A stretch of 38,258 nucleotides of DNA from a virus: the IMG/VR virus record IMGVR_UViG_3300030098_000142, positions 1-38,258 of that record. One strand, given 5' to 3'. The notes under the pieces were generated by a model. That model did no database searches. It worked only from the letters and a program-made list of their open reading frames with translations, and had not been told where the DNA came from. Numbering within the stretch: the first letter of the stretch is position 1; each line of letters starts with the position of its first letter. Shown in pieces: positions 27,916 to 35,701 of this stretch. A program made the translations under genes and the position numbers.

Positions 27916-28167
27916 TTATTCCCAATCTCTTATTCTTTCGGGGTCTAACACGTCCTGCTTATTAAGATGCCCCTCCAAATACATAGCACGTTCTACTCTA
28001 TCTAGAGTATACCTGACACCTGTGTTTTGATGAATAGCTTCTCGTACATAGAATACGTCTGAACGTGGTATATGTACTCTTCGTAGTTTTGCTTCGTTGT
28101 TATCAGCTAGTGCTTTGTAAAATTCCTCTATGACGGAATCCGAAGCAAACATTTTTTTCTTGGACAT
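27916..28167 (-). CDS. First gene of the late block, small unknown protein
   Basis: 83 aa. Starts KKKMFASDSVIEEFYKALAD and continues with ARRVHIPRSD-like and YVREAIHQNTGVRYTLDRVE sequence, mainly helical, with an acidic end (DVLDPERIRDWE). No Shine-Dalgarno is visible before the ATG (CTACCA), and the candidate promoter just upstream would place transcription at or next to this ATG. A leaderless message, or a start at the Met of residue 6, are both possible. Family not recognised; position next to the control region hints at a regulatory or switch-related role, but only that. Confidence 0.62.
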   Translation of the reverse strand: MSKKKMFASDSVIEEFYKALADNNEAKLRRVHIPRSDVFYVREAIHQNTGVRYTLDRVERAMYLEGHLNKQDVLDPERIRDWE

Positions 28168-28340: not shown

Positions 28341-28410
28341 GTTAAGCTTTAAGTAATACGTTATGTATACATAATTATATCTCATACTGCCCCCGCTGTC
28401 AAGTATTAAT

Positions 28411-28792: not shown

Positions 28793-28829
28793 TTAAACTA
28801 TATTTCAAAAGTAGTTTAACGTTAAACTA
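28793..28829. repeat. TTAAACTA repeats with an 18-bp perfect palindrome
   Basis: TTAAACTATATT occurs at 28793-28804 and again at 28822-28833, and an inverted copy of its core precedes the second, making the perfect palindrome TAGTTTAACGTTAAACTA at 28812-28829. A further inverted copy TATAGTTTAA lies at 29354-29363. Three sites in 40 bp look like an operator array for a dimeric regulator. Confidence 0.6.
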
Positions 28830-29043: not shown

Positions 29044-29058
29044 GTGACGTAACGTCAC
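29044..29058. promoter_or_regulatory. 15-bp perfect palindrome GTGACGT-A-ACGTCAC (operator-like)
   Basis: Seven-base arms around one centre base. A second palindrome of identical geometry and the same outer GTGAC/GTCAC arms (GTGACAC-T-GTGTCAC) lies at 34622-34636, upstream of the integrase operon promoter. Its place about 50-100 bp before the structured RNA region suggests an operator or activator site for that transcript. Confidence 0.6.
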
Positions 29059-29104
29059 AATTTACAAATTAGAATATTACTATATGTCGATTTCAAGGCA
29101 TGGC

Positions 29105-29662
29105 ATTAGTCGGAAATATTAGCCCTTACCAGTAAGCCCACGTTATTTGAAAATTGGAGCCGTAAAACCTAAGCATCAACACCAGTTGCTAATATTAGGT
29201 TAAGTTTAAACCCTTGTTACTGGGTGCTAGAGATTAGCAAAACTTTTTTACGGTAACCCATCGGAGCTAGTGAGTATAAGACTAGCAAAAGTAAAGTAAC
29301 CTAATCGTTATGGTAAAGCGATTAGATACCGAATATAAGCGGATGTTTTGAAGTATAGTTTAACCTAGTTTATTGCTCATGGTAATAAATGAAATAAACC
29401 GCCTATCATATAGATAGATTGTTTTAGAGTTAAAATGCTTAATTGACTACAGAGAAAAACAAAAGTTTTAAAAGGGTATCCGACAGCAGAGCAAAGTCGG
29501 GAAATGAAAAAGAGATATAGTGCTAATTAGCAATGCGCTATAAGATTATAACGTTTGATTTTATCAAAATATTTTATAGCAAGTGGCTAGTTTATTAAAA
29601 CCTATTAGCAAGGGTTTAATAGTACGCATAACCGCTCAAAAGTAAGTAAAGTGAAAAGCTTG
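29105..29662 (+). ncRNA. Probable large structured non-coding RNA
   Basis: About 550 nt without reading frames but dense in complementary arms. Perfect pairs: CCGTAAAA/TTTTACGG (29160-67 / 29246-53), AACCTAA/TTAGGTT (29166-72 / 29195-201), TTGCTAAT/ATTAGCAA (29186-93 / 29233-40), GCTAGT/ACTAGC (29266-71 / 29281-86), CTAATCG/CGATTAG (29301-07 / 29319-25) and an enclosing TCGG/CCGA (29261-64 / 29329-32), GTTTATT/AATAAAC (29368-74 / 29393-99), CTATC/GATAG, CCGAC/GTCGG (29480-84 / 29496-500), TTTGAT/ATCAAA (29554-59 / 29563-68). The loop of the second helix contains an arm of the third, a pseudoknot-like arrangement, or else alternatives. TATAGTGC/GCGCTATA (29516-23 / 29535-42) needs one U-G pair, allowed only if the plus strand is transcribed. 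Boundaries are approximate; class not identified. Confidence 0.55.
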
Positions 29663-29691
29663 TAGGCATGAGATAATTTATCTTGTGCCTA
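29663..29691 (+). terminator. 13-bp hairpin closing the RNA region
   Basis: TAGGCATGAGATA (29663-29675) pairs fully with TATCTTGTGCCTA (29679-29691) over a 3-nt loop. Two of the pairs are U-G and G-U, possible only in a plus-strand RNA. A T-rich tract (GGTTTTTA) begins six nt later. Probably the 3' terminator of the structured RNA, although the T-run is not immediately adjacent. Confidence 0.55.
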
Positions 29692-29697
29692 TTATGG

Positions 29698-29715
29698 TTT
29701 TTACTTTGGTAAAAA
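29698..29715 (+). terminator. Second short hairpin before the first early gene
   Basis: TTTTTAC (29698-29704) and GTAAAAA (29709-29715) form a 7-bp A/T stem with a 4-nt loop, about 35 nt before the ATG at 29751. It could act with the previous hairpin in termination, or occur in the leader of the 163-aa gene. Confidence 0.4.
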
Positions 29716-29750
29716 TCGTTTGTCATTAATTTATAGAGAGGATTAAAAAA

Positions 29751-30242
29751 ATGACTTCAATTATTGAAAATGTAGTAAAGAATTTTTCAAACAATATCGG
29801 TAACGGTATCAACTTAGGTATTCATTTTAAATCTATTGTAGATCATGTTATTAAAACTGGTGATACTACACCAATAGTTAAAGCTATGAACGCCTCAATC
29901 AATAGAGGTGATACAGCATTGACTAGTCAACTTAGGGTAACAACTGGTAAAATTTGGATAGGTGCGAAAATCAAATCTAAAAATGGTAAAGTTATTTCCA
30001 TTAAGATTAAAGACGCTAAACTTTCAAATAGTGCCGTTAAAGCTTTATCTGAAGTGTCTGGTACTGTTTCAATGCGAGGCACTAATTGGAAAAAAGCCTT
30101 TGCATCTGATACTGAGCCGAAAGCTTTTGATGTTGCACTATGGGCAGCTAGACAGGCAACGGCTAGACCAGATCAATTAGAGGCAATGATAGCCGCATTG
30201 CAAGCGCAACGTGCTACAGTTAGCAAGAAAAAAGCTGCTTAA
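29751..30242 (+). CDS. 163-aa orphan protein directly after the structured RNA
   Basis: First plus-strand gene; SD GAGAGG before ATG. N-terminal half: VVKNFSNNIGNGINLGIHFK, VDHVIKTGDTTPIVKAMNAS; middle strands WIGAKIKSKNGKVISIKIKD; C-terminal helices FDVALWAARQATARPDQLEA, then a basic end VSKKKAA. The net basic character fits nucleic acid binding. I do not recognise a family. It is bracketed by the RNA hairpins and a hairpin terminator, so RNA plus gene form a separate unit from the small genes that follow. Its linkage makes it a candidate partner of the RNA; this is inference. Confidence 0.75.
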   Translation: MTSIIENVVKNFSNNIGNGINLGIHFKSIVDHVIKTGDTTPIVKAMNASINRGDTALTSQLRVTTGKIWIGAKIKSKNGKVISIKIKDAKLSNSAVKALSEVSGTVSMRGTNWKKAFASDTEPKAFDVALWAARQATARPDQLEAMIAALQAQRATVSKKKAA

Positions 30243-34754: not shown

Positions 34755-34820
34755 ATGGAAGTATACCAAAAACCTGACGACTCACATGATGATTGCACAC
34801 ACTGGATAGGAAAGATATGA
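34755..34820 (+). CDS. 21-aa leader peptide gene coupled to integrase
   Basis: ATG 34755 follows AGGAAAGGA; the peptide MEVYQKPDDSHDDCTHWIGK-I ends at TGA 34818-34820, which overlaps the integrase ATG (34817-34819). The strong ribosome site and exact ATGA overlap suggest that translation of this peptide sets integrase expression. No known function for the acidic His/Asp-rich peptide. Confidence 0.55.
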   Translation: MEVYQKPDDSHDDCTHWIGKI

Positions 34821-35701
34821 AACTAAAAGATGCTATGGAGAAATACTTTAGAACCAGACAGTTTAGCTCCCTGTCTAGATCCTCTCAACTAAACTATGAG
34901 TATGCTCTAGCATCTATCTGTCGTATGTCTGTTATGGGCAAGACACTTGGCAATGTTAACATCAAGAAGCTTAACCCTGCTATGTGTCTAGAGATATACG
35001 ATACAGTAGAACTGGGAACCTCAACAGCAAACGCAAACCATATTGCCAGAGTGTTTTCAGTTCTCATGAATTTTCTAATCTCAATAGATGAGATACCAAA
35101 CAACCCGATGGCTAGAGTTAAGAAGAGATCAAGCGAACCTCGATCTGTGATATGGACACATGACCAAGTGATGTCTTTTCTTGACACTGCCTTCGGTAAT
35201 TTTGAGTGGAGAAACATAGGGCTAATTGTTCTCATGTGTTATGAGTGGGGGCAAAGACCTATAGACATTCGTAACTTGACTTGGGAATCAGTTGACTTAG
35301 AACAAGGTAAAGTTACAATCACTCAAAGTAAACGTGGTGCTACCGTTGAACTACCAATACCTGACAACTTATTAGAAATGCTAACTGAACAGAAAAAGGA
35401 TTGGGACTTTCAAGAATATGTAGTACCTCATCACAGGCCACAGGACAGTGCCTACAGGCCACTAACAGTATCCCAGATGACCTCCCTGCTTGGAGAAGTT
35501 AAGGCTACTGTAGGGCTTCCTGATGACCTGCGAGTTGGTGACTTGAGAAAGACTGCGATAGTACAGATGATAGAAAGTGGGGTAGATCACCTAGCTATTC
35601 AGTCTGTCTCTGGTCACAAGAGTGTATCAAGTTTAAATCCCTATAATAAATTTAGTTTAAAAACAGCACAGTCTGCATTAGAGAGGAGACAAAGACAATG
35701 A
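34817..35701 (+). CDS. int: Tyrosine integrase
   Basis: 294 aa from ATG 34817 (GGAAAG upstream); a TTG further upstream is unlikely. N-terminal SAM-like core-binding region (SLSRSSQLNYEYALASICRM). Catalytic domain: Arg147 in WGQRPIDIRNLTW, Lys172 in ITQSKRGATVEL, box II Arg244 in VGDLRKTAIVQM, His267 in VSGHKSV and nucleophile Tyr276 in LNPYNKFS. The usual box II His is replaced by Gly241. It inserts the phage into the host chromosome, so the phage is probably temperate. No excisionase and no tRNA-like attachment site were recognised. Its stop overlaps the next gene by ATGA. Confidence 0.88.
   Translation: MKLKDAMEKYFRTRQFSSLSRSSQLNYEYALASICRMSVMGKTLGNVNIKKLNPAMCLEIYDTVELGTSTANANHIARVFSVLMNFLISIDEIPNNPMARVKKRSSEPRSVIWTHDQVMSFLDTAFGNFEWRNIGLIVLMCYEWGQRPIDIRNLTWESVDLEQGKVTITQSKRGATVELPIPDNLLEMLTEQKKDWDFQEYVVPHHRPQDSAYRPLTVSQMTSLLGEVKATVGLPDDLRVGDLRKTAIVQMIESGVDHLAIQSVSGHKSVSSLNPYNKFSLKTAQSALERRQRQ

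Follow-up and report, generated by a model that had tools for sequence, protein, structure and literature searches.

A large structured RNA behind a host rRNA-type boxA, upstream of the early genes of marine phages related to the HMO-2011 type

In bacteria, boxA elements are known to precede long RNAs that are not translated, for example 16S rRNA and CRISPR arrays (PMC7862264), and in the rRNA of E. coli the rrn boxA is the site bound by NusB and NusE (S10) (PMC4807359). In E. coli, boxA further serves the Nus factors in repressing a gene, as found for the suhB leader (PMC5725501). In phage lambda, the N-dependent nut sites combine boxA and boxB in the leaders of early transcripts, whereas GOLLD and ROOL represent ornate, pseudoknotted and phage-borne RNAs of several hundred nucleotides, with a conserved 3' domain and variable inserts. 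The locus described here resembles each of these systems in part. As in the 16S leaders of Rhodobacteraceae, an identical 16-mer boxA lies 5' of a long structured untranslated RNA and, as in the boxB-boxA order of rRNA leaders, a hairpin is found just upstream of it. Unlike an rRNA leader, the locus resides in a phage genome, its body bears no similarity to rRNA and it is followed by protein-coding early genes. With the nut sites it shares a boxA in what would be the leader of an early phage transcript, but the hairpin precedes boxA, hundreds of nucleotides of conserved structure follow, and no N protein was recognized in the phage, although N proteins are not recognizable by sequence. In common with boxA-led CRISPR arrays, boxA stands ahead of what would be a long untranslated transcript, which is, however, phage-encoded and without repeats or spacers. 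Finally, the RNA is similar to GOLLD and ROOL in size and architecture but differs in having no match in Rfam, no nearby tRNAs, a position directly upstream of an early gene and a boxA.

The boxA element and its carriers

The window, by which we refer to the entire analysed stretch of 38 kb (38,258 nucleotides), is a virus record with a terminase that shares 80% identity with its counterpart in Roseobacter phage CRP-13 and is also close to those of other HMO-2011-type phages; judged from its sequence, the source phage is a relative of HMO-2011-type roseophages. The minus strand bears the structural genes, which extend up to 28167, the plus strand bears the early genes, which start at 29751, and 29105-29750 is free of genes. 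The region and its flanks contain the following features:

27916-28167, minus strand: conserved gene of 83 aa on the opposite flank of the intergenic region, which served to find relatives
29102-29124, plus strand: hairpin GGC...UCGGAAAUA...GCC just upstream of boxA, its stem kept in relatives (by inspection)
29139-29156, plus strand: rRNA-type boxA, CACGTTATTTGAAAATTG, with a 16-mer match to Sulfitobacter 16S leaders
29160-29253, plus strand: P1 domain directly 3' of boxA, closing helix 29160-29167/29246-29253, arm sequences replaced with pairing kept
29301-29330, plus strand: H-type pseudoknot, stem 29301-29307/29319-29325, loop GGU 29312-29314 with ACC 29328-29330
29403-29417, plus strand: AUAUA-loop hairpin, stem 29403-29407/29413-29417, loop conserved
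29480-29500, plus strand: hairpin Ha, stem 29480-29484/29496-29500, conserved AGCA(AAU)GCAAA loop
29520-29629, plus strand: 3' three-way-junction domain, from RNAalifold on alignment A4
29662-29692, plus strand: hairpin of 13-14 bp in the 3' domain, other stem sequences in relatives (by inspection)
29696-29717, plus strand: last hairpin before the RBS of the 163-aa gene, GGTTTTTAC/GTAAAAATC, in relatives for example GGATTTA/TAAATCC
29751-30242, plus strand: first gene of the early block, 163 aa, without a known family, found after every complete 3' domain

Among the conserved motifs of the region, the longest without a break is CACGTTATTTGA[AC]AATTG at 29139-29156. When bacterial genomes were scanned with this motif, most matches were scattered and chance-like, and we counted those in the rRNA operons of two uncultured Sulfitobacter contigs, which were checked and whose 16S was placed by Rfam. 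In these 16S leaders, the 16-mer CGTTATTTGAAAATTG is identical and located about 245-250 nt before 16S. The aligned element in the 16S leaders of other Rhodobacteraceae shows variants such as ACGCTCTTTGAAATT, ACGCTATTTGAAATC, ACGCTGTTTGACATT and CACGTTATTTGAAATT; the phage copies vary over a similar range, and their core G[CTA]T[AT]TTTGA differs from the commonest Rhodobacteraceae form GCTCTTTGA. By place and sequence, we thus regard 29139-29156 as an rrn boxA. Its position 5' of the RNA is fixed: each of the 26 loci tested has the core once, on the same strand and 158-446 nt upstream of Ha, compared to a background of 0.056 sites per kb; some of these loci were picked up by the Ha pattern alone and carry no boxA information from their selection. 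The window holds a single site and no second copy, and a longer boxA pattern matches exactly once in seven of eight related records. The helix of P1, which closes a long-range domain, starts ~14 nt after the start of the boxA core. In relatives, the stem of the hairpin preceding boxA (CUGA..UCAG and UUGA..UCAA, for example) surrounds a loop starting with UCGGA. Its position is like that of boxB in rRNA leaders, and by analogy it may have a related function. Two other assignments of the motif were discarded, one as −35 promoter element (TTGACA), since no −10 element follows, and one as pairing between ACGTTAT in boxA and ATAACGT (29547-29553), since the 3' element is absent in L003 and L020. 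No strong sigma-70 promoter was recognized upstream of boxA on the plus strand.

Copies of boxA were also found in other phages. In the viral contig L113 (4076-4094), a promoter-like sequence precedes it and a tRNA cluster follows after about 180 nt; the leader is nearly the same in L112, L119, L123 and L128 (the tRNA scan covered L113). The early-gene leader of roseophage SIO1 (L194, 9214-9230) contains CACGCTGTTTGACATTG, of which a 16-mer is common to a 16S leader. A short hairpin comes next and a long RNA body is absent; boxA in this phage must therefore serve the operon. A Cobavirinae record from oyster (PQ867845; L193, 582-900) carries a boxA, a CATATAG hairpin and an Ha-like hairpin (by inspection) before its first early ORF; a search of this record with R1, the covariance model introduced below, gave no match, and it is possibly a distant family member in a named subfamily. 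The occurrence of boxA in the early leaders of SIO1 and PQ867845 indicates that boxA early leaders are more widespread than the long RNA. A GGG..CCCCGAU hairpin, as found after the SIO1 boxA, was seen too in L010 and L116/L121. In one viral contig, a leader composed of boxA and a GGG..CCC hairpin is found in two places (L116 122-140 and L122 5496-5514), in at least one copy directly before a small ORF, and looks like a repeated leader element.

Structure, strand and relatives of the RNA

Relatives in the same gene context were found via the 163-aa gene, the 83-aa gene on the other flank and short conserved words of DNA. Their comparison bears out the proposal of a sequence-only reading of the window that a large structured RNA is located between the divergent gene blocks: covariation across many related contigs is strong, and conservation and compensatory changes in related phages, the absence of which that reading had named as refutation, are both present and speak in its favour. 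Judged from these sequences, the gene-free stretch is a real structured plus-strand RNA of ~600 bases with a fold preserved by evolution. The strand had been predicted from a few G-U pairs and is confirmed by three alignments, which combined contain 56 G-U cells but only 2 A-C cells (28 times fewer). As these 56 G-U cells would be mismatches on the minus strand, the RNA corresponds to the plus strand. The plus strand is also more stable than shuffled sequences, as had been anticipated (MFE −159.2 versus a shuffled mean of −136.9, z −2.9, with 0/20 shuffles as stable), but the minus strand reaches a z of −2.5 and single-sequence folding alone would thus not settle the matter. The span initially assigned to the RNA, 29105-29691, is indeed gene-free but too short, since the RNA runs past 29691 to about 29717.

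The 8-bp outer helix already recognized at 29160/29253 is real, covaries in close and distant relatives and stays paired despite almost unrelated arm sequences. In close relatives, CCGUAAAA/UUUUACGG is replaced by CCGC/GCGG, CUACC/GGUAG or CUGUA/UACAG, and in the equivalent helix of more distant relatives, where the arms are the best helix per locus and thus partly selected, 81/81 cells are paired and 21 double-changed, with 0/2000 shuffles being as good. P1 also contains a local hairpin (29225-29229/29235-29239). The crossing helices suspected within P1 (29166-29201 with 29186-29240) did not hold, as their 5' arm is not kept in the relatives L020 and L022, in which TTAGCA, the 3' arm, and TGCTA form the local hairpin at 29225-29229/29235-29239. 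A pseudoknot does exist, but at 29301-29330: in alignment A5 of 14 sequences, 126/126 cells are paired and seven of nine pairs double-changed (0/500 shuffles), and the pseudoknotted hairpin bears the conserved loop UUAUGGUAA. For the AUAUA hairpin, alignment A9, containing 10 distinct sequences excised by hand, is 96% paired with 17 double-changed cells and a covariation score reached in 0/500 shuffles. The DNA pattern of Ha alone retrieves further family members.

In the 3' part, a MAFFT alignment of 12 sequences (A4) yielded with RNAalifold a three-way junction of 39 pairs, 25 with compensatory changes, in the helices 29520-29523/29626-29629, 29525-29534/29583-29592, 29537-29546/29571-29580 and 29593-29602/29612-29621. 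Here, 95.1% of the cells are paired compared to 78% in shuffled alignments and 72 cells are double-changed compared to 21 (0/500 shuffles). Sliding the partner by one column reduces pairing to 36-39%, a control that is biased toward the structure since the latter was derived from A4, the count of double changes being less dependent on it. An 8-bp helix previously assumed at 29516/29542 is lost in most relatives, and both of its arms belong to covarying helices elsewhere, 29520-29523 pairing with 29626-29629 and 29537-29546 with 29571-29580. Conversely, the 13-bp hairpin described at 29663/29691 exists, and relatives have it with other stem sequences (by inspection). A first guess of the 3' domain, with a helix 29582-29586/29632-29636, was superseded by the better RNAalifold junction. 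The covariance model R1 was built on this superseded structure, which bears on all R1 searches; R1 detects the non-seed members L002, L037, L040, L061 and L070 and further contigs.

The RNA class is uncatalogued and absent from Rfam. At gathering thresholds, neither the window nor its relatives matched any Rfam family including GOLLD, ROOL, OLE, HEARO and group I and II introns, the comparison that the earlier reading had recommended, and its statement that no known consensus is recognizable is upheld; at relaxed threshold, the window and relatives gave chance-level matches to other families only. No tRNA or tmRNA was found in the window by ARAGORN or Rfam. The sequence GATATAGTCC in L001, considered as group I intron core, was dropped as it has no Rfam match and is unconserved. 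Four versions of the region, used as nucleotide queries against public phage records, returned no homolog. Cultured HMO-2011-type isolates contain about 0.5-1.3 kb of noncoding sequence at the same place, in which an R1 search found no match, and most cultured CRP isolates and HMO-2011 show no clear boxA, suggesting that the family may be restricted to uncultured relatives or be too divergent for R1 in these isolates.

The RNA is modular with respect to the gene that follows. A complete 3' domain was found in 21 loci, all of which (21/21) continue with a relative of the 163-aa gene, compared to 0/8 in the loci with boxA, core and Ha that lack a complete 3' domain and are followed by other genes (Fisher P 2e-7, with loci counted as independent despite shared ancestry). 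Among the 21 gene assignments, those of L020, L044 and L070 were made by tblastn or by eye and the rest by an ORF rule. The linkage may just reflect the inheritance of one cassette. The fold of the 163-aa early protein was modelled with a pLDDT of 85, and a fold search with it gave no convincing structural relative. A second subfamily (L007, L009-L011, L032, L057, L073, L089), which shares boxA and in part the AUAUA hairpin, has its own GC-richer body and stands outside the structure counts.

Possible roles of the RNA in the early region

On balance, we favour the view that the plus strand encodes an untranslated leader at the 5' end of the early transcript; this leader would recruit host Nus factors via boxA. 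Soon after initiation, the nascent RNA would display an rRNA-type boxA like that of the host. NusB-S10 and other Nus factors of the host could then bind to it and render the RNA polymerase resistant to Rho, allowing it to traverse ~600 nt of untranslated folded RNA, which might otherwise invite Rho, into the early operon. The leader appears to be modular, its core (P1, the pseudoknot hairpin, the AUAUA hairpin and Ha) accompanying boxA whichever gene follows, whereas the 3' three-way-junction domain, found only with the adjacent early gene, would most likely act in cis on this gene. In favour of this view are the covarying plus-strand structure, the identity of the motif to the boxA of 16S leaders, its fixed 5' position, its presence in the leaders of L113 and SIO1 and the linkage of 3' domain and gene. 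Antitermination in lambda requires only about 60 nt. A conserved fold of 600 nt thus exceeds the requirements of a boxA, which counts against this assignment, as do the less common form of the phage boxA core, the lack of a clear boxA in most cultured CRP isolates and HMO-2011, the failure to recognize a strong sigma-70 promoter upstream of boxA and the possibility that 3' domain and gene are merely inherited as one cassette.

The excess of structure is accommodated if the body is a stable trans-acting noncoding RNA, a new large ornate phage RNA that is possibly cut from the early transcript, a proposal we consider tenable but would advance only tentatively. BoxA would then be present because long untranslated RNAs, like rRNA, need a Rho-resistant polymerase. 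With the same reserve, one might speak of a new pseudoknotted class of trans-acting phage RNA that is transcribed like rRNA under a captured host rRNA antitermination signal. Its size, covarying domains, pseudoknot and conserved loops (AUAUA, AGCAAAUGCAAA and UUAUGGUAA) are beyond the needs of a simple leader, the core is retained when the downstream gene changes and the boxA of L113 stands ahead of a stable-RNA array. Against a function in trans, the RNA is always found directly before an open reading frame, its 3' domain is bound to one gene, no separate promoter or convincing terminator is found at its bounds and SIO1 has boxA without the body. For the folded body, we prefer a function in cis, controlling the early operon and its first gene, over an action in trans. 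The suggestion of a new class akin to GOLLD and ROOL is supported in so far as the RNA is not in Rfam, but it had overlooked the boxA at 29139-29156; given this element, a leader of the early operon is no less likely than a free-standing ornate RNA.

It appears improbable that boxA and structure mainly act on the first early gene, regulating its translation or premature termination, instead of serving processive antitermination: the suhB leader (PMC5725501) provides a precedent and the linkage of the 3' domain to the neighbouring gene agrees with it, but in the window about 600 nt separate boxA from the start codon, and loci of the short form retain boxA although other genes follow. A function as DNA, for example as replication origin or operator array with RNA folding as by-product, is highly improbable despite the divergent intergenic position and adjacent palindromes such as AGTTTAACGTTAAACT, since it is already disfavoured by the strand asymmetry, the prevalence of G-U over A-C being explained by selection on a plus-strand RNA and not on DNA, and since the strand that carries boxA is always the one leading into the early genes.

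Our results extend the RNA repertoire of marine relatives of HMO-2011-type phages by a family that Rfam lacks and link this family to a specific machinery of the host, the antitermination complex of Nus factors; a mechanism thereby becomes testable in culturable roseobacters. In roseophages of different lineages (HMO-2011-type, SIO1 and the tRNA-array phage), a host rRNA boxA would open early or noncoding transcripts, and the sequences suggest that its capture could be a simple strategy to escape Rho without a phage antiterminator protein.

Several other elements were observed in the region. On the minus strand, 28374-28402 is a perfect sigma-70-like promoter (TTGACA-17-TATAAT), which presumably drives the structural gene block. 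The palindrome AGTTTAACGTTAAACT at 28813-28828 lies in the divergent intergenic region, similar dyads (GTTTAAC[AG]TTAAAC) are found in relatives, CRP-9 and CRP-13, and several CRP isolates share TTTGTGATCACAAA dyads; both types are likely operators of a phage or host regulator. The palindrome GTGACGTAACGTCAC at 29044-29058, shortly upstream of boxA, is kept in L005 and nearly so in L001. Finally, the early block contains a tyrosine integrase gene (34793-35701), and the phage may thus be temperate.
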